From an uncultured Coriobacteriaceae bacterium (GTDB lineage: Bacteria; Actinomycetota; Coriobacteriia; Coriobacteriales; Eggerthellaceae), in the NCBI GenBank assembly GCA_902779135.1, contig CACZAR010000002.1:1-53172 (forward strand): a stretch of DNA of 53,172 nucleotides. Direction: 5' to 3'. This document shows positions 11,030-45,591 of the stretch, piece after piece. Every line of letters begins with the position of its first letter. The first letter of the stretch is position 1. The translations under genes were made by a program, and so were the position numbers. The notes beneath the pieces were generated by a model. The model ran no database searches. It was not told where the DNA came from and saw only the letters and a program-made list of their open reading frames with translations.

Positions 11030-11884
11030 ATGGAGAGCATCGCGTACTACGATGGAAAGATTGGGTCACCCGATGAGCTAACGGTGCCGTTCAACGATCG
11101 TTCGCATTTCTTCGGTGATGGCATCTACGAAGCCTCGATTGGCGCAAATGGGAAGGTTTTCGCTATCGAGGACCACCTCGATCGCTTCTTCACCAGTGCT
11201 GCGTTGTTCGACATCCATATCCCTCTTTCGAAAGACGACCTCAACAAGTTGCTCCACGAGCTGCTCGCCAAGGTCGACAACCAATCAAGTTTCGTGTATT
11301 GGCAGGTCACACGTGGTGTAGCACCGCGCGAGCACACGTATGACGACAAAGCGCCCGGAAAACTCTGGGTCATGATTCGCCCCGAGTCGCTTCGCGATCC
11401 GAAGGTGCCGATGAAGCTCATCACGCTTGAGGATCGCCGATTCGGCTATGGCAACATCAAGACGCTCAACCTCATGCCAGCCGTCAAGTATTCGCAGGAG
11501 GCGCGTCATGCCGGTGTCGACGAAGCAGTGTTGCATCGCAACGGCGTTGTGACCGAATGTGCGCATTCGAACGTTCACATCCTCAAAGACGGCATCTTGT
11601 ACACGCATCCTAACGACGAGTACATCCTGCGTGGTATCGCGAAGACGCGGCTCATCCAAATCTGCTACCACGAGAGCGTTCCCGTCATTGAGCGTGCGTT
11701 CACGGTTGACGAACTCATGGCGGCGGATGAGGTCATCGTCACCTCTTCGGGCGACTTGCTCATCTTCGCTGATGAGGTCGACGGCGTGCCGGTCGGTGGC
11801 AAGGATCCGGATACGCTCGGGCGCCTGCGCCGCGCTGTGTACCGCGATTTTATTGACTACACGGGTGCCACGCAGCTGTTCTAA
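11030..11884 (+). CDS. dat: D-amino-acid aminotransferase (PLP class IV)
   Basis: A 284-residue fold-type IV PLP enzyme of the branched-chain / D-amino-acid aminotransferase family. Such enzymes make D-glutamate or D-alanine from 2-oxo acids for peptidoglycan. Seen are the family opening YYDGKIG, the NDRSHFFGDGIYE segment, the PLP-binding lysine in NIKTLNLMPAVK (Lys144), and EAVLHRNGVVTECAHSNVHI and YILRGIAKTR in the cofactor-phosphate region. The sequence looks closer to D-amino-acid transaminase than to IlvE or aminodeoxychorismate lyase, but specificity is an inference. AAGGAGGGG precedes the ATG at 11030. The next gene is convergent. Confidence 0.85.
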   Translation: MESIAYYDGKIGSPDELTVPFNDRSHFFGDGIYEASIGANGKVFAIEDHLDRFFTSAALFDIHIPLSKDDLNKLLHELLAKVDNQSSFVYWQVTRGVAPREHTYDDKAPGKLWVMIRPESLRDPKVPMKLITLEDRRFGYGNIKTLNLMPAVKYSQEARHAGVDEAVLHRNGVVTECAHSNVHILKDGILYTHPNDEYILRGIAKTRLIQICYHESVPVIERAFTVDELMAADEVIVTSSGDLLIFADEVDGVPVGGKDPDTLGRLRRAVYRDFIDYTGATQLF

Positions 11885-36305: not shown

Positions 36306-36347
36306 CCTTGGATTATCAGGAATCTTCTCTGGCAGGGGTCTTTGGAC

Positions 36348-36842
36348 ATGGACGACCGCCAACTCGAAAACCTGTACCGCGCCAACTTCCAGAGGGTGTA
36401 TAACTACGCCTACTACTCGTTGCTGAATTCTGCCGAAGCCGAGGATGTGACCAGCGCGGTTTTCGTCAAGGTCGTCGCGAACATCGACAAGTATGATGCC
36501 TCTCGGGCCTCGTTCGGCACGTGGATCACGCGCATTGCCCATAACGTTTTGGTCGATTACCACCGCACGCGCAAACCGACCGTGTCGCTCGAAAAAGTCG
36601 TGGTCGACGAGCCTGCGGTCGAAGATGACTATCCTGTGTTGGATGACCGGCAACAACGCGTCGCCAAACTGCTCGCTTGCCTCTCGGAGCAAGATCGCGA
36701 ACTGATATACCTGAAGTACTACCAAGAAAAGAAGAACGTCGAAATTGCGCAGTTGCTCGACATGAATCCATCGACGGTCGCTACGCGCCTGCGACGAGCG
36801 CTCATCGCCATGCGCGCTTGCGCTGAAGAGGAAACCTCATGA
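36348..36842 (+). CDS. ECF-like sigma-70 factor of module B
   Basis: A 164-residue sigma factor, paralogous to the one at 15243. Region 2 runs from LYRANFQRVYNYAYYSLLNSAEAEDVTSAVF to FGTWITRIAHNVLVDYHRTRK. Region 4 has LACLSEQDRELIYLKYYQEKK and VEIAQLLDMNPSTVATRLRRAL. The C-termini of both end in an M/RAC(A/V)E-type sequence. The ATG at 36348 follows CAGGGG; a TTG two codons earlier is possible. It overlaps the adaptor gene by 4 nt (ATGA), so it is translated with the exporter. No anti-sigma gene is seen. Confidence 0.88.
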   Translation: MDDRQLENLYRANFQRVYNYAYYSLLNSAEAEDVTSAVFVKVVANIDKYDASRASFGTWITRIAHNVLVDYHRTRKPTVSLEKVVVDEPAVEDDYPVLDDRQQRVAKLLACLSEQDRELIYLKYYQEKKNVEIAQLLDMNPSTVATRLRRALIAMRACAEEETS

Positions 36843-37390
36843 CGCAGGAGCGGGGATCTGGGCAAGTACAGCAGGGCGAACGGCAAGAACTGTTCCGGCA
36901 GACCGCTCTCGACCAGGCATCGGCGGCGACGGGGCTCGACGCATACATCAAGGCGGTACGGCCCAGCACGTGGCTCGTTGCCGTGGCGGCGGTCATTGCC
37001 ATGGTGGCCTTGCTCATCTGGGGCTTCACCGCCAAGGTGGCTACGACCATAAACGACAACGGTGTCGTGCACGACGGCCAGGTGGTCAGCTACCTGACCG
37101 AGCAGAACCGAAAGGAAGTCAGTGTCGGAGATCGCGCGCTCGTCGACAACGAAGAAGCGACTGTCGTCGACGTGTCCAAGACACCGCTTTCTTCGCGCGA
37201 TGCTGGGGCTGTGGCTAATGACGAGTACACACTCGAAATGCTCAAGCTCGAGGACTGGAATTACCCCGTGTACCTGACCATGGACAACTTGCCCAAGGAA
37301 GGTACCCTGGTCGACGTGATGATCACGACTGACGAGGTGGCGCCCATTTCGTTCCTTCTCGACTCGGAGCTGGGCAATGAATCGAGCTAA
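36839..37390 (+). CDS. NHLM-type secretion adaptor (HlyD-like), module B
   Basis: A 183-residue homologue of the adaptor at 15787. It has a cytosolic N-terminus of ~44 residues, a helix at about 45-66 (WLVAVAAVIAMVALLIWGF), then an extracytoplasmic beta-rich part beginning KVATTINDNGVVHDGQ. Both adaptors end in a similar VxITTxxxAPISFLL / VSITTERIAPISLIL stretch. It overlaps the sigma factor gene and, by 14 nt, the peptidase transporter gene. Confidence 0.8.
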   Translation: MTQERGSGQVQQGERQELFRQTALDQASAATGLDAYIKAVRPSTWLVAVAAVIAMVALLIWGFTAKVATTINDNGVVHDGQVVSYLTEQNRKEVSVGDRALVDNEEATVVDVSKTPLSSRDAGAVANDEYTLEMLKLEDWNYPVYLTMDNLPKEGTLVDVMITTDEVAPISFLLDSELGNESS

Positions 37391-39548
37391 AGGGCCCATC
37401 CGCACCGTTCCCATGGTCATGCAGATGGAGGCGCTCGAATGCGGTGCCGCCTGCTTGGCCATGATTCTCGCGTATCACGGCAAGTGGGTAGGGCTTGACC
37501 AAGTGCGCCACGACTGCGGCGTGTCGCGCGACGGCTCGCGCGCGGTCAACATCCTGAAGGCGGCTCGTTCCTACGGACTCGTGGCCGATGGCTACAGTCT
37601 CGATCCCGAATCGCTTGCGACTATGCCGCTGCCCTGCATCATCCATTGGAATTTCAACCATTTCGTTGTGCTGAAGGGCTTCACGGGCAAATGGGCCTAT
37701 CTCAACGATCCCGCACGCGGTTCGATTCGTGTGTCGCTCGAAGAGTTCGACCGTTCGTTCACGGGTATTGCGCTGTGCTTCGAACCGGGCGAGTCGTTCG
37801 AGGAAGGGGGTAAGCCGGCAAGCGTCGTCTCATTCGCGCGCTCACGTCTCAAAGGCGCTGCCGGTCCCACCGTTGTCATCGCCATTGCCGCCGTTATTGG
37901 GGCGTTTGCTGGCATCGCCAATGCAACGTTCTCGCGTGTGTTCATGGACCGCATCCTGACGGGCATCGACCAGAATTGGCTCGTGCCGCTCGTCGTGTTG
38001 ATGGCTATCGTCGCTATCTTGCAGTGCATCGCCGCCGGCATCAACTCTGTCAGCGCGCTGCGCGTGCGGGGGAAGTTTGCCGTTTCTGCAAGCACTGAAT
38101 TCGTTTGGCACCTGCTGCGGCTCCCCGTGTCGTTTTACGAGCAGCACAACATCGGTGACTTGCAGCAGCGCCAATCCGAGAACGAGAGCGTCGCCTACAC
38201 GCTCATCTCGCAGCTAGCCCCCGTGATGCTCAACGTGGTTCTTCTCGTGGTGTACCTGGTCGTCATGGTGCGCTACAGCTTGATGCTGACGCTGGTTGGG
38301 TTGTTCACCGTTGTGGTGAACCTGTTCGTGGTCAACGCCACAGCTCGTGCCCGTGTCAACGTCACGCGCGTGCAATTGCGCGACAACGGTCGGCTGTACT
38401 CGTCGACGATCGGCGGCATCGACCAAATCGAAAGCATTAAGGCCTCGGGTGCCGAAGACGGCTATTTCGCCCAGTGGAGCGGTTATCAGGCGGCGCTCGC
38501 AGCGACCCAAGCGCGTTTGGCCAACATCACGCAATATCTCGGGGCGCTCCCCTCGGCCTTGGTTCAGTTGACGAACGTCATCGTGTTGACCCTGGGCGTG
38601 TGGCTCATCATGGAAGGCGAGTTCTCGGTGGGCATGTTGCTGGCGTTCCAGAGCCTGCTTTCGCAGTTCTTCTCACCCATCAACTCGCTCCTCTCGCTCA
38701 ATCAACAGGTGCAGGAAATGCGCACGTCGATGGAGCGCATCGATGATGTGTTAAAGAGCGAGCCCGATGTCCCGGACGACATCGAAGATTGCCGTCCTTC
38801 GGGAGAAAAACTCTCGGGCAAGCTTGACGTCGCTGGACTGACGTTTGGCTACTCTCCGCTTGGGGCGCCAGTCATTTCCAGCTTCGATTTGCACGTGAAA
38901 CCGGGTGAGTGGGCCGCACTCGTCGGTGACTCCGGATGTGGGAAATCGACCATCGCCAAGCTGATTGCGGGTTTGTACAAACCTTGGGAGGGGTCGGTGT
39001 CGTTTGACGACATTCCCGCTGAAGAGGTGCCGCGCATGAAGCTCAAGCGGTCTCTTTCAGTTGTCGATCAAGACATCGTGCTGTTCGACGGCACCATTAT
39101 GGACAACTTGCGTCTGTGGGACGGCTCGATCGACGAAGCCGATGTGTTCCGCGGCGCGCGTGATGCGTCCATACATGAGGCCATTGTGGCGCGGCCCGAT
39201 GGATACGACCAGGCGGTCACATCCGATGGAGCCAATTATTCGGGTGGAGAACGCCAACGTCTCGAAATAGCCCGCGCCTTGTCCCAAAATCCCACGATCA
39301 TGATCCTTGACGAGGCCACGAGTGCACTCGATGCCAAGACCGAGCAAGAGGTCATGCAGGCAATACGCGCACGCAACATCACGTGCATCGTGGTTGCGCA
39401 CCGCCTATCGACCATTCGCGATTGCAGTCAGATCGTGGTGCTCGAAAAGGGACACGTGGTGGAACGGGGCACGCATGACGAGCTGATGGGGCTCAACGGT
39501 CGTTATGCAGCGCTTGTGAACGACGGCGATACGGGAGGTGCGCGATGA
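37377..39548 (+). CDS. NHLM bacteriocin-system ABC transporter with C39 peptidase domain, module B
   Basis: A 723-residue peptidase-containing exporter closely similar to the product at 16297. The C39 triad is complete: Cys22 in LECGAAC, His95 in NFNHFVVL and Asp111 in LNDPARG. The membrane domain spans about residues 160-460. The ATPase domain has Walker A GDSGCGKST, signature YSGGERQR and Walker B IMILDEATSALD. It should remove the leader of the Nif11-type precursor at 42966 after its Gly-Gly and export the core. It overlaps both neighbours. Confidence 0.92.
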   Translation: MNRAKGPIRTVPMVMQMEALECGAACLAMILAYHGKWVGLDQVRHDCGVSRDGSRAVNILKAARSYGLVADGYSLDPESLATMPLPCIIHWNFNHFVVLKGFTGKWAYLNDPARGSIRVSLEEFDRSFTGIALCFEPGESFEEGGKPASVVSFARSRLKGAAGPTVVIAIAAVIGAFAGIANATFSRVFMDRILTGIDQNWLVPLVVLMAIVAILQCIAAGINSVSALRVRGKFAVSASTEFVWHLLRLPVSFYEQHNIGDLQQRQSENESVAYTLISQLAPVMLNVVLLVVYLVVMVRYSLMLTLVGLFTVVVNLFVVNATARARVNVTRVQLRDNGRLYSSTIGGIDQIESIKASGAEDGYFAQWSGYQAALAATQARLANITQYLGALPSALVQLTNVIVLTLGVWLIMEGEFSVGMLLAFQSLLSQFFSPINSLLSLNQQVQEMRTSMERIDDVLKSEPDVPDDIEDCRPSGEKLSGKLDVAGLTFGYSPLGAPVISSFDLHVKPGEWAALVGDSGCGKSTIAKLIAGLYKPWEGSVSFDDIPAEEVPRMKLKRSLSVVDQDIVLFDGTIMDNLRLWDGSIDEADVFRGARDASIHEAIVARPDGYDQAVTSDGANYSGGERQRLEIARALSQNPTIMILDEATSALDAKTEQEVMQAIRARNITCIVVAHRLSTIRDCSQIVVLEKGHVVERGTHDELMGLNGRYAALVNDGDTGGAR

Positions 39549-41623
39549 GCGATTTTGAAACGCAGCTTCCCATGAATGGCCTCGATGAGGCCTTGGCCGT
39601 TTTGCTTGCCCATTTCAATGTGAAACCTTCTAAAACACTGCCCATCGGCGACACAATCGAGCAACGGCTCGACAGCATGCTGCATCCCCACGGCATCATG
39701 AGACGCAAAGTCCGTCTGGAAGGGCAGTGGTACAAGGACGCGATCGGTGCGATGCTGGGCGCTTTGCAGGATGGTAGTCCTATCGCGCTGCTTCCCCATG
39801 GTGCGGCGGGCTATTCTTACGTCGACCCCACAACCGGCAAACGCGTACGCGTGACGGGTGCCAATGCGGGCACTATCCAACAAGACGCACTGTGCCTGTA
39901 CCAGCCGCTTCCCTTGAAACCGCTGGGTCTTCGCGACTTGGCCTCGTTCGGTTTGCGGTCACTCGGGAAAGCTGACTACGTGACGATCGTGCTGGTCAGC
40001 GTGATTGCGACCGTCATAGGCCTGCTTCCCGCATGGGCGAACCAGGTCATCTTCGACCAGGTCGTGCCTTACGGCAAGCCATCGCTCGTCCTGCCAGTTG
40101 CCGCGCTGCTGATCGGAGCGGTGCTTTCGCAGGCAGTCATAGGCCTTGCCCGGTCGCTCGTGACGGCACGTATCGGCACCAAGCTCAACGTGCAGGTGCA
40201 AGCAGCTGTGATGGCGCGCCTTTTGCTGTTGCCGCCACGGTTCTTCGTGGAGCACCAGCCTGGCGAGCTGACCAACCGAGCCATGGCGGTTACGCAGCTC
40301 GTGCAGCTGCTCATGAAGGTCGTGTTCACCACGGGGCTCTCGTCGGTGCTGTCGCTCGTCTACATCGTGCAAATCGCCAGTTTCGCACCGCAGCTCACCA
40401 TCCCCGCACTTTTCGTCTTGGTTGTGAATGCGATCGTCACCACCGTGGCGACGCTCGCCAACATGCGTTACGACCAGAAGCAGCTCGAGAGCACGGCGGG
40501 CCTTTCGGGCACGCTGGTCTCGCTGCTTTCGGGCATAAGCAAGATCAAGCTGGCGGGCGCAGAGCGTCGAGCTTTCACCCGCTGGGCCCAAGATTACGCT
40601 CAAGTTGCCAAGAGCATTTACGATCGCCCGCTGTTGCTGAAAGCCTCAAGCGTTATCACGACGGCCACGGGGTTGGCGGGCACCATCCTCATCTACTTCC
40701 TCGCAAGTGCCACACAGGTATCGGTTGCCGATTACATGGCGTTCAACGTTGCATACGGTATGGTCACGGGCGCCATCATGGCACTTGCCGGTATCGGTAC
40801 GCAAATCGCGGCTATCCAACCGACCATGAAGCTCGTCGAGCCCGTGCTGAAATGCCAGCCCGAAGCACGCGAGGGCGACCATCCTGTTGAGGACGTCACG
40901 GGCGCCATCGAACTGACGGACGTCACGTTCCGCTACAGCGAGGACGGCCCGGCCATCGTCGAAGATTTAAGCCTATCGATTCATCCCGGCGACTACGTGG
41001 CGATTGTCGGCCGCACGGGATGCGGCAAATCGACCCTGGTGCGCCTATTGCTTGGCTTCGAGGAGCCCGAACTAGGCACCATCTGCTACGATGGGCGCGA
41101 TCTTGATACGCTCGACAAGCGTTCGTTGCGCCGCCATATCGGCGTCGTCCTGCAAACCGGCAGGTTGGTGTCGGGTAACATCTTCCAAAACATCACGCTT
41201 TCCGCACCTTACCTGACGATGGACGAGGCGTGGGAAGCGGCTGAGTTGGCTGGCATTGCCGACGACATCCGCGCAATGCCCATGGGCATGTTCACGCGCA
41301 TCTCCGAAGGTTCGGGAAGCATCTCGGGTGGCCAACGCCAGCGCTTGCTCATAGCGCGTTCGGTTGCCGCAAAACCCAAGTTGCTCATCTTCGACGAGGC
41401 TACAAGTGCGCTTGACAACATTACGCAGCGTCAGGTGTCCGACGCCCTGGGCGCGCTTGACTGCACGCGCGTTGTGGTAGCGCATCGGTTGTCCACGATT
41501 CGCAACTGCGATCGCGTTCTCGTGCTCGACGGCGGACGTATCGTCGAGGATGGCACGTATGACGATCTGCTTGCGCAAAACGGCGTTTTCGCTGAGTTGG
41601 TGGAGCGTCAGAGGTTGATATAG
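39545..41623 (+). CDS. NHLM bacteriocin-system ABC transporter, second ATP-binding protein, module B
   Basis: A 692-residue ABC exporter lacking the peptidase domain, paralogous to the product at 18449. The soluble N-terminal ~140 residues contain MRRKVRLEGQWYKDAIGAMLGAL, which aligns with the other copy. A membrane domain and an ATPase domain follow, with GRTGCGKST, ISGGQRQR and LLIFDEATSALD. It overlaps the previous gene by 4 nt. About 85 bp separate it from the glycosyltransferase gene, with no terminator, so that gene is probably on the same transcript. Confidence 0.9.
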   Translation: MSDFETQLPMNGLDEALAVLLAHFNVKPSKTLPIGDTIEQRLDSMLHPHGIMRRKVRLEGQWYKDAIGAMLGALQDGSPIALLPHGAAGYSYVDPTTGKRVRVTGANAGTIQQDALCLYQPLPLKPLGLRDLASFGLRSLGKADYVTIVLVSVIATVIGLLPAWANQVIFDQVVPYGKPSLVLPVAALLIGAVLSQAVIGLARSLVTARIGTKLNVQVQAAVMARLLLLPPRFFVEHQPGELTNRAMAVTQLVQLLMKVVFTTGLSSVLSLVYIVQIASFAPQLTIPALFVLVVNAIVTTVATLANMRYDQKQLESTAGLSGTLVSLLSGISKIKLAGAERRAFTRWAQDYAQVAKSIYDRPLLLKASSVITTATGLAGTILIYFLASATQVSVADYMAFNVAYGMVTGAIMALAGIGTQIAAIQPTMKLVEPVLKCQPEAREGDHPVEDVTGAIELTDVTFRYSEDGPAIVEDLSLSIHPGDYVAIVGRTGCGKSTLVRLLLGFEEPELGTICYDGRDLDTLDKRSLRRHIGVVLQTGRLVSGNIFQNITLSAPYLTMDEAWEAAELAGIADDIRAMPMGMFTRISEGSGSISGGQRQRLLIARSVAAKPKLLIFDEATSALDNITQRQVSDALGALDCTRVVVAHRLSTIRNCDRVLVLDGGRIVEDGTYDDLLAQNGVFAELVERQRLI

Positions 41624-41708
41624 TGATAATGAAATGGTAGGAACAATTCGTCGTATGAGCAGTTAAAAGATGCATTGAAATTCGCAGGCATTAGAATGAA
41701 GGAGAAGA

Positions 41709-42893
41709 ATGATGAGGATTCTCTGGTTCTGCATTCCCGCATATGGGCATACTAATCCGACCATCGAAGTTGTTCGCGAGCTTGTGCGGCGTGGCCACGA
41801 AGTGCGCTACTACTCCTTCGAGGAGTTCCGGGAGAAGATTGAAGGTGCTGGGGCGGACTTTATATCCTGCGACGCCTATTTGCCCGCCCTCGATGCAAAG
41901 AGCGAGCGCAAGCTCCGCGAGGTGTCAACCACCGAGATGAGCGTGCAGTCGTTTCGCATCACCGCCACCCTCGATCCCATCATCTCGCAGGATGTGGAAT
42001 CATGGCAGCCTGATGTGCTGGTCACGGATTCCGCTTGCTTTTGGGGCAAACTCACAGCAATTAAGTTCAACCTTCCCTGGGTGTGCTCCACCACCACGTT
42101 CGCATTCAATAAGGATTCTGCCCAATACATGCAACAGAGTGCATCGGAGATTGCCGATATGGTCTTGGGACTTCCGCGCATGAACTGCGAGATTCGCAAG
42201 CTGCGGGGCTTGGGCTACCATGTGAAGAACGTCCTCGACATCGTGCAGAACAAGCCTGACGACAACACCATCGTCTACACCTCACGCACCTTCCAGCCCT
42301 GCGCCGAGACTTTCGATGAGATACATTACCGCTTCGTGGGCCCGTCCGTGCGCGAGGTGGAGCCGCGCGAGAAGGCTGGCCGCCCGCTGGTGTTCGCATC
42401 ACTCGGCACGGTCATCAACGACCGCCCTGGTTTTTACCGCACGCTCATCGAAGCCCTGCACGATGAGGATGTCGACCTGCTCATATCCTGCGGTAAGGCG
42501 TTCGACCCAACGGTTTTGGGCGAACTTCCCGCCAACATGCGCGTCGAGCACTACGTGGATCAGATGGAGGTGCTCTCGCGGGCGAGTCTGTTCGTCACGC
42601 ACTGCGGCATGAACAGTGCATCGGAGGGCATGTGGATGGCAGTGCCCGAACTGCTCTTCCCCCTGACGGGCGAACAGCGGGCGGTGGCGCGGCGCGTGGC
42701 CGAGGTCGGCGCCGGCGTTCTCCTTGACGAGCACGATGCCAAAGATGCGCTAAAGCTGAAAGCGGCTGTGCTCTGTGCGCTTGCGAACGAGGACATTTCC
42801 ACAGGGGCTGCCCGCATGAGGGAAGACCTTCGTTCATGCGTCGGTCCTTCCGGTGCAGCCGACTTCATCGAGCAGTGTTCCCTGAAACGTTAA
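41709..42893 (+). CDS. MGT-type (GT1) glycosyltransferase in the RiPP cluster
   Basis: A 394-residue GT-B glycosyltransferase like those that glycosylate macrolides and other natural products. The N-terminal acceptor domain opens with ILWFCIPAYGHTNPTIEVVRELVRRGHEV, including the conserved His. The C-terminal donor domain has PLVFASLGTV and the sugar-nucleotide motif FVTHCGMNSASEGMWMAVPELLFPLTGEQ. AAGGAGAAG precedes the ATG at 41709; a second ATG follows at once. Its place between exporter and precursor suggests it glycosylates the exported peptide, or a self-protection target; this is inference. Confidence 0.88.
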   Translation: MMRILWFCIPAYGHTNPTIEVVRELVRRGHEVRYYSFEEFREKIEGAGADFISCDAYLPALDAKSERKLREVSTTEMSVQSFRITATLDPIISQDVESWQPDVLVTDSACFWGKLTAIKFNLPWVCSTTTFAFNKDSAQYMQQSASEIADMVLGLPRMNCEIRKLRGLGYHVKNVLDIVQNKPDDNTIVYTSRTFQPCAETFDEIHYRFVGPSVREVEPREKAGRPLVFASLGTVINDRPGFYRTLIEALHDEDVDLLISCGKAFDPTVLGELPANMRVEHYVDQMEVLSRASLFVTHCGMNSASEGMWMAVPELLFPLTGEQRAVARRVAEVGAGVLLDEHDAKDALKLKAAVLCALANEDISTGAARMREDLRSCVGPSGAADFIEQCSLKR

Positions 42894-42906
42894 ACCCCCG
42901 TGCTCG

Positions 42907-42912
42907 TATAAT
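42907..42912 (+). promoter_or_regulatory. -10 element before the precursor peptide gene
   Basis: A perfect TATAAT, 54 bp before the precursor start and after the glycosyltransferase stop, could give the precursor its own stronger transcript. No good -35 is seen. Confidence 0.4.
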
Positions 42913-42965: not shown

Positions 42966-43289
42966 GTGAACCTGGAAGACTACATCAAGGAACTAAGCCC
43001 CGAACTGCAGGAGAAGGCCCGCGCGTGCGGCAGCGTCGATGAGCTGTTGGTGCTCGCCAAGGAGAACAAGATTCCATTGCCCGATGAGGCGCTTACCGCC
43101 ATCGCAGGTGGGCAGGATGGCGGAACCGTGAACTGTGGGAAACTGCATTGTCCGCAGTGCAGCTGCACCAAGATCGCATACCAGTACGAGGATCGCGGGA
43201 ACTACTACCAGTATTTTTACACGTGCACTGGGTGCGGTTACGAGTGGTCCGAGAGATGGCCCAAATACCCTGATCCGGGCATAAACTAA
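42966..43289 (+). CDS. Nif11-like leader RiPP precursor with zinc-ribbon-like core
   Basis: A 107-residue precursor. The leader (NLEDYIKELSPELQEKARAC, then SVDELLVLAKENKIPLPDEA and LTAIAGG) is a clear Nif11-type leader ending in Gly48-Gly49, the expected C39 cleavage site. The 58-residue core has six cysteines (57, 62, 65, 67, 87, 90) and is rich in Tyr. CPQC and CTGC with about 20 residues between, then GYEW, look like a zinc ribbon. The core may be a metal-binding mini-protein, a substrate for radical SAM thioether formation, or both. The GTG at 42966 follows AAGAGGAGG; the TTG at 42960 is too close to that site. Confidence 0.88.
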   Translation: MNLEDYIKELSPELQEKARACGSVDELLVLAKENKIPLPDEALTAIAGGQDGGTVNCGKLHCPQCSCTKIAYQYEDRGNYYQYFYTCTGCGYEWSERWPKYPDPGIN

Positions 43290-43296
43290 GATAATC

Positions 43297-44694
43297 ATGC
43301 GTTACCGCTTGAAACAAGGTTGCAGCCTGCGTGGATGGCTGTTCAATCCGTACGCTCTCGTGCGGGACGATTGGTATATGCCCACCAATTTGTCAGTGGG
43401 CGAGTTCAACGTGTTGGTGCGCTGCGATGGGGAAACCGTCTTCGCGGAAGATGAACCCGACGAGGTGCGTGCGATTCTGGCGCGTTTCCTCGAAGAAGGC
43501 GTGATTGAAGAATGCGCTGCTCCTGATCCCGTTGCTGACGCCCAGGGATACAAGTTGTATCCCTGCTGGCGGTTTAACCTGATCAACTGGGCTATCACGG
43601 GCAGGTGCAACTACAACTGCAAGCACTGCTTCGCAGCAGCCGATCTCAATCCGATTGCGGCGCATCCCACAACCGAACAGTGCCTGGCATTCGTGGATCA
43701 GTTGGCCTCCTGCGGCATCCGCCACGTATGGCTCACGGGTGGTGAGCCGCTTTTGCGCAACGATTTCCCGCAAATCGCGCAAGCACTTGCCGATGCAGGC
43801 ATATCAATCGACGACATTGGCACGAACGCCTCGCTCGTCACTGACGAATTGCTTGACGCCCTTAAGGCGATGGGCCACCATCCCCAATTCAACATCAGCT
43901 TCGACGGACTTGGACATCACGATTGGCTGCGCGGCGTGCCGGGCGCCGAAGAGCGCACGCTTGAGGCGATTCAGCTGCTGAAACACCGCGGCTACCGCGT
44001 GAAGGTGCAGTATTGCCTGTGGGACGGCAATCTGGATACGCTGCGCGAGACCACGCTACGCTTAGCGGATATGGGCGTCGATCATTTGCGCCCCATCCGC
44101 GTGGTCGAGGCGCCGCGGTGGAAGGCTGCCGAATACGGCCATACGCTGGACTATCGCGCCTATTGCGATTTGATGGTGGAATACCTTGACTGGTATGTGG
44201 GCGAGAATCTGCCCATGGAACTGGAAGTGTGGTCATTGCTCGATTACATGCCCGCTTCCAGGCAATGCCGGCTCACACCGGTTAAGCGCTGCAGCGTCGA
44301 ACGCGATCGGCTCCAGCCTGTGTGCGGCGATGCGCGCAACATGCCCTTCGTGGCGAGCAACGGCAGCCTGACGTTATGCAACCAAATCTCAGGTTGGGAG
44401 ACGGCTCACGGCGTCGAGCACGGCAACGTATACAAGACACCGCTGGCCGAGCTGTTATCTAACTCGCCCTTCACGCAGCAACTGTTGGTTACCCGTGCCC
44501 AAGTGCGCGAGCACAATCCCCAATGCCAAACGTGTGAGTTTGCCAGTGAGTGCAATTGCGGCTGCCGGGCAGTTGCGCTTGCCATGACCGACGACTTGTT
44601 GGCAGCTGACCCCACGCAGTGCATCTTCTTCAAGGGCGGCTACCGCGAGCGTTTCTCGCAAGTCCTTGCTACGCACAACATCACCATTTGGTAA
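43297..44694 (+). CDS. Radical SAM/SPASM peptide maturase
   Basis: A 465-residue radical SAM enzyme. An N-terminal ~85-residue part may be a peptide-recognition (RRE/PqqD-like) fold. The SAM-binding cluster motif CNYNCKHC follows, then LTGGEPLLR. The C-terminal SPASM region is cysteine-rich (CRLTPVKRCS, PVCGDARN, LTLCNQ, CQTCEFASECNCGCRA), able to hold auxiliary Fe-S clusters. Such enzymes install thioether or carbon crosslinks in ribosomal peptides. The gene starts 7 nt after the precursor stop, with no strong RBS of its own, suggesting coupling. The bond it forms cannot be told from sequence. Confidence 0.92.
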   Translation: MRYRLKQGCSLRGWLFNPYALVRDDWYMPTNLSVGEFNVLVRCDGETVFAEDEPDEVRAILARFLEEGVIEECAAPDPVADAQGYKLYPCWRFNLINWAITGRCNYNCKHCFAAADLNPIAAHPTTEQCLAFVDQLASCGIRHVWLTGGEPLLRNDFPQIAQALADAGISIDDIGTNASLVTDELLDALKAMGHHPQFNISFDGLGHHDWLRGVPGAEERTLEAIQLLKHRGYRVKVQYCLWDGNLDTLRETTLRLADMGVDHLRPIRVVEAPRWKAAEYGHTLDYRAYCDLMVEYLDWYVGENLPMELEVWSLLDYMPASRQCRLTPVKRCSVERDRLQPVCGDARNMPFVASNGSLTLCNQISGWETAHGVEHGNVYKTPLAELLSNSPFTQQLLVTRAQVREHNPQCQTCEFASECNCGCRAVALAMTDDLLAADPTQCIFFKGGYRERFSQVLATHNITIW

Positions 44695-44821
44695 ATCTGC
44701 CAAAGCGCCCGGCGCGTGGGCCATAAACCCCTTTTTTCTTCCAATTGGGTGAAACGGTCTTTCGGCTCATTCGTATAGGGGAATAGGAAGAAAAGAAAGA
44801 AGTGGGATTATCTTCTACGAA

Positions 44822-44872
44822 ATGCCGTATAGGTGCAAAGACTGCGGTCACAAGTTTCTTGCGCCAGTGTAG
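44822..44872 (+). CDS. Possible 16-residue zinc-finger-like micro-ORF or remnant
   Basis: Reads MPYRCKDCGHKFLAPV then TAG. The MPxYxCxxCGxxF pattern is the start of FmdB/zinc-ribbon regulatory proteins, which normally continue with a second CxxC. No clear RBS is next to it. It may be a truncated gene 5' end or chance. Confidence 0.35.
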   Translation: MPYRCKDCGHKFLAPV

Positions 44873-44889: not shown

Positions 44890-45156
44890 ATGGACGTGAT
44901 GAGTGACAACTCGTTCGAGAGCAGCATGAAGTGCGATTTCCCGGTACGGGAATCGTTCCGCGAAGCTTTGCTTGCAGACTTGCTTTCGATGGACGAAAGC
45001 GAGTTAGCATCAGCGTCGTCAGACGAATCGATGGAGCCTCACAAGAGTGCGGCGCGGATAGTCAAGCTCGAAGACGCTGATTTGGAGATGCTTGCCGCGG
45101 CAGAAGGTGAAGATCGAGCACTCAAACACCCGCTTGTGGACCCGTTCGAACAGTAA
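44890..45156 (+). CDS. Small acidic protein of NHLM module B (candidate export substrate or regulator)
   Basis: An 88-residue protein related to that at 14912-15145. ESFREALLADLL at residues 21-32 matches ESFRDELLARCL, and VKLEDADLEMLAAAEG matches VELDDSVLDLLAAAGD. The rest is acidic and serine-rich. No named family is recognised. Its presence in both sigma/exporter modules, first in A and last in B, points to a shared role as peptide substrate, leader-like partner or sigma-factor modulator. TACAAT at 44876-44881 ends 8 nt before the ATG at 44890, so the mRNA may be leaderless; a second ATG is at 44899. The spacer 44695-44821 holds only a weak GGG/CCC hairpin with six T. Confidence 0.65.
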   Translation: MDVMSDNSFESSMKCDFPVRESFREALLADLLSMDESELASASSDESMEPHKSAARIVKLEDADLEMLAAAEGEDRALKHPLVDPFEQ

Positions 45157-45279: not shown

Positions 45280-45355
45280 GCCAACGTGGCTCAGTTGGTA
45301 GAGCAGCGCACTCGTAATGCGCAGGTCACCGGTTCGAGTCCGGTCGTTGGCTCCA
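45280..45355 (+). tRNA. tRNA-Thr (anticodon CGT)
   Basis: 76 nt with encoded CCA. The acceptor GCCAACG pairs with CGTTGGC, the anticodon loop is CTCGTAA, and the T-arm has GGTTCGAGTCC. Its last 20 nt recur at 45533-45552. Confidence 0.95.
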
Positions 45356-45363
45356 CAAGTTAG

Positions 45364-45392
45364 CAGGCCAGGGAAGACTCCCTGGCCTGTTT
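45364..45392 (+). terminator. Terminator after tRNA-Thr(CGT)
   Basis: Stem CAGGCCAGGGA / TCCCTGGCCTG with loop AGAC and TTT. An identical copy is at 45561-45589. Confidence 0.85.
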
Positions 45393-45394
45393 GC

Positions 45395-45591
45395 ATTTCT
45401 ACAATGGTGATGAAGGACGAGAACCGGTGAGGTGGGAGGCCGTTAAGCAAACGCGCCAGTGGCGCGTTTGTAGGCCGACGGTCTGAGCGCGTAAGCGCGA
45501 AGACGTTGAGCGTTCACCGCAGGTGAACGCGGGAGTCCGGTCGTTGGCTCCACAAGTTAGCAGGCCAGGGAAGACTCCCTGGCCTGTTTGC
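45395..45591 (+). repeat. tRNA-linked repeat element, copy B (beside tRNA-Thr CGT)
   Basis: After the tRNA and its terminator come a degenerate inverted T-arm copy (about 45413-45428) and a core (about 45429-45532). An exact 59-bp copy of the tRNA 3' end plus terminator follows (45533-45591, matching 45336-45394). The core matches the reverse complement of 20755-20839 over about 80 bp with few changes and contains the perfect hairpin AAACGCGCC / GGCGCGTTT (45449-45469). A final hairpin GCGTTCACC / GGTGAACGC differs in sequence from that of copy A (GTTTCG / CGAAAC) but is also paired. Confidence 0.85.

Follow-up and report, generated by a model that had tools for sequence, protein, structure and literature searches.

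Nif11-type leaders joined to predicted zinc-ribbon cores: a candidate class of putatively exported precursors in Eggerthellaceae and Bacillota

Nif11 leaders with NHLM exporters are already known (Haft et al. 2010, PMC2887384), and a radical SAM (rSAM) enzyme has been described as the sole candidate maturase in Nif11-leader systems (Haft 2011, PMC3023750). The locus analysed here resembles these Nif11-type (N11P/TIGR03798) RiPP systems in its likely leader family, Gly-Gly site, exporter pair, candidate sole rSAM maturase and paralogous precursor expansion. The accessible parts of both papers report thiazole/oxazole, lanthionine and rSAM associations, and a zinc-ribbon core is not mentioned in those parts. 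C39 cleavage of varied cores has been described for the LahA type (PMC6363468) and precursor expansion for the prochlorosins (PMC10783134). As far as the accessible text of these sources goes, both share with our locus the plan of a single machine serving many dissimilar cores behind a Nif11 leader, and a C39 cut that is expected here, but there LanM makes lanthionine rings on short peptides, whereas here an rSAM enzyme accompanies a predicted folded ribbon. NHLP/Nif11 clusters of Eggerthella lenta (71-residue leaders and 50-59-residue cores in the available portion of PMC4289311) are similar in belonging to related bacteria and in having an exporter and an rSAM enzyme. Bufferins (DUF2282/Buf2, PMC12452194) are exported metal-binding RiPP proteins with conserved cysteines, a likeness for which export and metal are presumed on our side; according to the accessible part of that paper they differ in their MNIO enzyme, Sec signal, copper and thiooxazole.

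Sactipeptides, ranthipeptides and streptide (CteB, SkfB, SuiB) share the rSAM/SPASM type of maturase with this locus. We know of no sactipeptide, ranthipeptide or streptide core that is a folded metal domain. The zinc ribbons of TFIIB, TFIIS, RPA12, S27e and L37Ae share the ligand pattern and the predicted fold. These domains work inside the cell and are not known to carry an export leader. In a search that scarcely covered subscription journals and preprints, no publication was found that links zinc ribbons to Nif11 or RiPP leaders. Judged from the sequences, a strong case can be made for ribbon-core precursors as a candidate distinct class. RiPP cores are usually seen as short unfolded peptides rigidified by enzymes, and the core described here looks like a ready-folded metal domain; if this is true, the range of substrates of RiPP machinery would be widened, and nature would supply a library of scaffolds complete with leader, modifying enzyme and protease.

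The window (the whole stretch analysed, 53,172 nucleotides of an uncultured Coriobacteriaceae bacterium, contig CACZAR010000002.1) contained on its + strand, in this order, genes for an ECF sigma factor, a HlyD-like protein, a peptidase-ABC transporter, a second ABC transporter, a glycosyltransferase, the precursor, a radical SAM/SPASM enzyme and a small protein, orf88 (Table 1). The precursor gene is probably one of a repertoire encoding small exported zinc-ribbon proteins, controlled by the sigma factor, modified in their tail by the rSAM enzyme and cut by the C39 peptidase.

Table 1. Coordinates of the features discussed (window positions unless a locus is named).
Feature	Position	Strand	Basis or remark
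ECF sigma factor, first gene of the exporter operon	36342..36842	+	TIGR02937, 97.2 bits (cut-off 42.9)
Short HlyD-like secretion protein	36839..37390	+	Weak TIGR03794 match, 25.6 bits (below cut-off 156.2)
NHLM exporter 1, C39 peptidase and ABC transporter	37377..39548	+	TIGR03796, 931 bits (above 853); Peptidase_C39, 3.8e-36
NHLM exporter 2, ABC permease/ATPase	39545..41623	+	TIGR03797, 731.5 bits (above 709.4)
Promoter-like TGAAAT-N16-CGTATG before the glycosyltransferase gene	41630..41657	+	Two mismatches to TGAAAC/CGTATA
Macrolide-type glycosyltransferase (MGT/GT1)	41709..42893	+	TIGR01426, 294 bits (above 260)
ECF-type promoter of the precursor, TGAAAC-N16-CGTATA	42883..42910	+	Shared upstream motif
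Leader, residues 1-49, Gly-Gly at end	42966..43112	+	Nif11 (PF07862) in 13/15 relatives, best 7.3e-8
Core, residues 50-107, tail and predicted zinc ribbon	43113..43286	+	Direct reading; predicted fold
Cys57 in the tail, non-ligand, proposed modification site	43134..43136	+	Counts of pre-ribbon Cys in relatives
Knuckle 1, CPQC (C62, C65)	43149..43160	+	Reading; alignment of relatives
Knuckle 2, CTGC (C87, C90)	43224..43235	+	Reading; alignment of relatives
Radical SAM/SPASM enzyme, N-terminal leader-binding-like domain	43297..44694	+	Radical_SAM, 3.6e-21; SPASM, 1.6e-5
ECF-type promoter before the remnant ribbon and orf88	44750..44777	+	Shared upstream motif
16-residue remnant of a ribbon precursor, second knuckle, MPYRCKDCGHKF...	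44822..44872	+	Only MPYRCKDCGHKFLAPV survives
orf88, small conserved gene, same promoter	44890..45156	+	Found in 8/138 family genomes
Non-ribbon core GALEELYNWL...LNAIYDII	L068 2562-2882; L074 11749-12093; L077 10428-10739		

The precursor reading frame (42966-43289, + strand) encoded 107 amino acids, with a GTG start at 42966 and a stop codon read directly at 43287-43289; an AGGAGG Shine-Dalgarno sequence lay upstream, and AAGAGGAGG precedes the start codon. The frame, the Gly48-Gly49 site and the 58-residue core with two CxxC pairs and two further cysteines were as given in the preliminary description: the six cysteines are C57, C62PQC65, C67 and C87TGC90GYEW, with 21 residues separating the knuckles. 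G48 and G49 were invariant in the aligned relatives. The window leader itself scored below the Pfam Nif11 cut-off (15.3 bits vs. 23.8), and TIGR03798 was not listed for the window protein; among the 15 chosen relatives, PF07862 was found in 13 and TIGR03798 in six (best 1.7e-7).

The leader was conserved, the core variable and the Gly-Gly motif present, as in Nif11-leader precursors. Median identities between ribbon paralogues were 60% (leader) and 21% (core) for 40 precursors of G140, a Ruminococcus genome, 75% and 26% for 16 precursors of G142, and 77% and 36% for seven precursors of the window's own genome. When the window gene was compared with its G119 orthologue, the core was more similar than the leader (91% vs. 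83% identity), and dN (0.037) was lower than dS (0.386) over few sites, as expected for purifying selection on the core; thus paralogous cores differ, yet each core is kept. Positive selection on the core was considered and not seen in the orthologue comparison. A mobile origin was likewise set aside: the precursor had no match in plasmids or phages, and the only PHROGs match was phrog_10675 (0.0022, over the ribbon).

The ribbon pattern was counted in 133 leader-bearing precursors gathered from the loci of 12 genomes, each core being shuffled to obtain the expected number. The CxxC..CxxC pattern was present in 59 of the 133 cores (1.9 expected), a CH knuckle with a CxxC in 41 (3.8 expected, the CH class having been widened once to admit C-x5-H, so that its count is partly after the fact), and a CxxC with a wider C-x3/4-C pair in six (2.7 expected). 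Two metal-ligand knuckles were therefore found in 100 of 133 cores, against about 5.7 expected by shuffling. Histidine often took the place of the second cysteine, as CPxGGxH (CPxGGxHxW), CxH or CxxH. Replacement of Cys by His is a normal zinc-ligand swap, and these variants suit metal binding rather than thioether rings.

C62, C65, C87, C90 and G91 were kept in 15/15 chosen relatives, two rows of which had been picked for having the ribbon. Pfam Zn_Ribbon_TF matched ten of these 15 (best E 6.5e-8); for the window protein alone the E-value was 0.068, and the TFS_arch profile matched it with an E of 0.0015. Many zinc-ribbon families matched in a set of 27 selected cores, of which 26 came from one Ruminococcus genome (taken under a length limit from the 37 extracted there) and one from a second genome; the best value was 2.9e-9, and no single family was found in more than nine of the 27. 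A profile search against PDB sequences returned mostly zinc ribbons (RPA12, TFIIB, S27e, L37Ae), the top two matches being a C2H2 finger array and a cytochrome.

AlphaFold2, run with 27 sequences, predicted a three-stranded ribbon with strands at 69-75, 79-86 and 92-98 (model numbering equals protein numbering minus one) and a block pLDDT of 86-90, while the leader and tail were ill-defined (mean 68.7, pTM 0.39). The VIA-align matches of this model, which span mainly residues 48-105 and hence little of the leader, included the NrdR ribbon (Z 5.5, rmsd 1.5, 42 aligned), RNA polymerase I A12.2 (the yeast C-ribbon; Z 5.5, rmsd 2.1, 45 aligned, 36% identity) and TFIIS 1tfi (Z 4.7); Z-values for ribbons ranged from 4.7 to 5.5, which is modest, and the best Foldseek E was 0.13. 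The anatomy of a zinc ribbon, two CxxC/CxxH knuckles in a predicted three-stranded sheet, was found, and the window core is, by sequence and predicted fold, a predicted zinc ribbon, the zinc itself being presumed. The preliminary description had taken the cysteine spacing as that of a metal-binding ribbon and had looked to structure prediction and homologous cores for confirmation; the counts, the Pfam matches and the predicted likeness to A12.2, TFIIS and NrdR agree with it. Leader-bearing homologues without the pattern, which that description would have counted against itself, do occur (27 of the 133 cores showed neither ribbon pattern), but they do not overturn it, since all 13 members of the promoter-linked class had the pattern.

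The same description had also proposed a ribosome or polymerase mimic, and an intracellular regulator binding RNA polymerase or the ribosome, like the TFIIS or S27e ribbons, would account for the 36% identity over 45 residues to A12.2 and for the TFS_arch match. We consider this highly improbable: the similarity is that of ribbons generally, the hairpins differ among paralogues, and the precursor has a Gly-Gly export leader and a C39-ABC exporter nearby. The mimic was dropped on the same grounds, although A12.2 and TFIIS were among the best structural neighbours. Its other proposal, a metallophore, fits a metal-ligand core behind an export leader and a many-copy repertoire, as would a zinc buffer outside the cell comparable to bufferins or methanobactins. 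This reading found no support either and is judged very unlikely, as no metal uptake or importer gene, receptor or metal-dependent regulator was found among the eight cluster proteins scanned, an ECF-type promoter precedes and would control the precursor, the cores are dissimilar outside the ligands, and structural ribbon sites hold zinc tightly.

Neither a LanM synthetase nor an MNIO enzyme was present among the same eight proteins. Upstream lay an NHLM export operon in which both exporter proteins exceeded the curated cut-offs and the HlyD protein did not (TIGR03794); the latter was 88% identical in the orthologous cluster L059. The C39 peptidase of NHLM exporter 1 presumably cleaves after Gly-Gly, as is familiar from its family. 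The glycosyltransferase gene between exporter and precursor looks as if it had been inserted behind an old precursor promoter. The enzyme was considered as a general tailoring enzyme and discarded, since it had no tblastn match in L059 and can be accessory at most.

The CxxxCxxC motif and all SPASM cysteines of the rSAM enzyme were invariant in 11/11 homologues (32-37% identity, the close orthologue aside). Its model (pLDDT 85.6) aligned to anSMEcpe (Z 25.3), SkfB (Z 24.3), SuiB (Z 24.2) and CteB (Z 22.8), and the SuiB alignment includes the N-terminal part because it covers model residues 3-446. The N-terminal elements of the model were E2-5, E9-14, E17-23, H34-42, E44-48, H55-66 and E70-73; no RRE/PqqD profile matched the window enzyme. 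Scores were below cut-off for TIGR04103 (nif11-class radical SAM maturase 3; 85.7 bits vs. 725) and for NF045574 (StsB-type sactipeptide maturase; 106.3 bits vs. 625).

The structural similarity to the thioether-forming CteB and SkfB, together with six cysteines in the core and the presence of the same rSAM family beside short Cys-rich cores, would also suit a sactipeptide or ranthipeptide in which the enzyme would join the cysteines of the ribbon to carbon and their ribbon-like spacing would be a coincidence. This reading is unlikely given the histidine at a Cys ligand position in 41/133 cores, the predicted ribbon fold and the many zinc-ribbon family matches (best 6.5e-8 and 2.9e-9).

The rSAM gene adjoined ribbon precursors in nine loci (L059, L065, L066, L068, L069, L071, L072, L073 and L076), and enzymes of the same family were found beside ribbon precursors in Eubacterium ruminantium, Ruminococcus and Lachnospiraceae; the pairing of exporter and rSAM seen in the window recurred in Bacillota. 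In G023 the enzyme lay beside three ribbons among five precursors with other leaders, and in G353 beside ribbons with a different leader. Among 299 genomes around E. ruminantium, four had the precursor, five had a close rSAM (E<=1e-160) and three had both (0.07 expected). The fourth precursor genome (G420) was a leader-only match; of the other two genomes with a close rSAM, G353 has ribbons missed by the profile, and none were found in G591. Ribbons are not the sole partner of this rSAM family, because it also adjoined short four-Cys cores (CGCDNCSPLGNCF in L081 and CGGCYEHSNLNC in G128). More distant rSAMs sat beside non-ribbon cores; those beside a related rSAM in G053 were Cys-rich and, unlike the window core, were not ribbons. 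G115 and G121 had the rSAM without an adjacent precursor.

The stretch from Gly-Gly to the ribbon usually holds one more cysteine. A non-ligand Cys before the ribbon was present in 13/13 promoter-class Eggerthellaceae ribbons vs. 0/6 ribbons with other leaders from the same genomes (Fisher p 3.7e-5, for sequences related to each other). Of 87 ribbon-like cores from Bacillota, 68 had it (42 of them at position +1) and 19 lacked it, and 12 of 13 complete ribbons from later loci around E. ruminantium had it. Among Bacillota non-ribbon cores, 14 of 22 had a Cys within the first six residues, sometimes their only one. The tail (C57) is proposed as the rSAM-modified part because of the contrast between the promoter-linked and the other ribbons, and the conserved non-ligand Cys is, on these alignments, the best candidate for the rSAM target.

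An unmodified secreted zinc-ribbon protein, with a RiPP-type leader serving export only and an rSAM enzyme acting on other substrates, seems rather unlikely. Ribbons can fold unaided, most of the scattered paralogues in the window's own genome have no rSAM beside them, and the rSAM family has the other partners described above; against this, the rSAM-ribbon neighbourhood is repeated across two phyla and with several leader types, the leader is of a kind read by RiPP enzymes, and the tail Cys tracks the promoter-linked class. On contig C55 of the same genome, a different rSAM-like gene lies between two His-type ribbons that lack the tail Cys (L046 6852-7145, 8361-9653, 10280-10627), so some ribbons may receive their modification elsewhere, or none.

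The upstream regions of precursors shared TGAAAC-N16/17-CGTATA, ending 40-90 bp before the start codon, a form familiar from SigW-type ECF promoters. Fourteen upstream regions were compared, and the C50 paralogue with another leader had no such motif. Under a slightly looser pattern the window contained three sites (0.12 expected by chance). Its own genome contained 11 (N15-18; none in the reversed control): seven before ribbon precursors, one before orf88 and three before neither; among the seven precursors, the second one on C100 is cut off by the contig end. Within the genus, sigma orthologues of at least 82% identity were found only in the own genome, G119 (82%) and G121 (91%). Sites (N15-17) numbered nine, five and five in these three genomes, and eight, four and four of them (16/19) were linked to a ribbon precursor or orf88; the other 12 genus genomes had 0-4 sites each, 20 in total, some before orf88 or precursors. 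The promoter is shared by the window precursor and these paralogues, and the sigma factor of the exporter operon would be the one that reads it. The 300 bp upstream of the sigma gene contained no copy, and autoregulation is thus without support from sequence. G115 had some components of the system and lacked a close sigma orthologue, which may reflect contamination or a lost gene. The common ECF-type promoter offers a sequence handle for locating dispersed precursors.

A site also lay 60-150 bp upstream of orf88 in six of its seven same-genus copies. This gene encodes 88 residues without a family match, the conserved part ending in LEDADLEMLAAAEGE; it was conserved beside the rSAM gene and, in G120, lay beside the sigma gene, and its product may act as a partner of the sigma factor or as a leader-like factor. 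A decayed precursor was observed in L059 (~11183-11330) between rSAM and orf88, with the leader start MNLEDYIKG and the second knuckle FRCKDCGCGF in another frame.

Joined together, these observations suggest the following scheme for the modified and exported ribbon. The ECF sigma factor at the head of the exporter operon would activate TGAAAC-N16-CGTATA promoters and, with them, the window precursor as well as its dispersed paralogues. The N-terminal domain of the neighbouring rSAM/SPASM enzyme may bind the Nif11-type leader, and the enzyme would alter the tail that joins Gly-Gly to the ribbon, with C57 as the most likely site or starting point of the change. The four ribbon cysteines (Cys/His in relatives) would hold a single structural zinc and take no part in thioethers. 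The C39-ABC exporter would then cut after Gly49, as its family membership suggests, and release a folded 58-residue product. With low confidence, its role outside the cell is most likely in dealings with other microbes, by competition or signalling. More broadly, and only as a tentative proposal, such precursors may represent a class of exported metallo-RiPPs, with a zinc-ribbon scaffold and an rSAM-modified N-terminal tail. Actinomycetota and Bacillota of the gut and rumen would make them as large repertoires with a single enzyme and a single exporter, and in one lineage they would form the dispersed regulon of a dedicated ECF sigma factor.

In the window's own genome (2.17 Mb, 83% complete), 18 regions resembled the precursor at E<=10, several of them along its entire length, ribbon included. 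Precursor matches (E<=0.01) were found in 25 of 138 genomes of the bacterial family, many of them by their leader only. When named genomes were scanned, 23 loci turned up, from Eggerthellaceae and Coriobacteriaceae MAGs and from Bacillota: the Actinomycetota MAGs were from sheep ileum, roe deer jejunum and the RUG series, and the Bacillota included the isolate Eubacterium ruminantium FB3002, Ruminococcus MAGs, Lachnospiraceae and other Clostridia. The compact cluster of E. ruminantium FB3002 (L065) makes the idea testable. The trait was patchy in the sampled groups, the precursor alignment matching 3/197 genomes around G140 and the precursor search 4/299 around E. ruminantium.

The Ruminococcus MAG RGIG9280 (G140; L067/L174, L175) had 56 leader-bearing precursors in a 1.8-Mb genome. 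They were mostly arranged in tight head-to-tail tandem arrays, with little space between them for immunity genes. A second dispersed repertoire was observed in G593 (L208, L211-L215), sampled with the E. ruminantium family, with 17 precursor matches over nine contigs and CPxCGS-type ribbons with the tail Cys. The Cys-poor non-ribbon core listed in Table 1, which is probably helical, was near-identical in three Ruminococcus genomes and followed the same leader. Two ribbon proteins (L048 503-862 and L058 2155-2481) kept only the last part of the leader before Gly-Gly, as if the leader had been shortened. Downstream of orf88 in the window, the 3' end of a tRNA-like gene with a terminator-like stretch (about 45337-45393) was seemingly repeated about 195 bp further on (about 45532-45588), which by eye resembles an integration scar.
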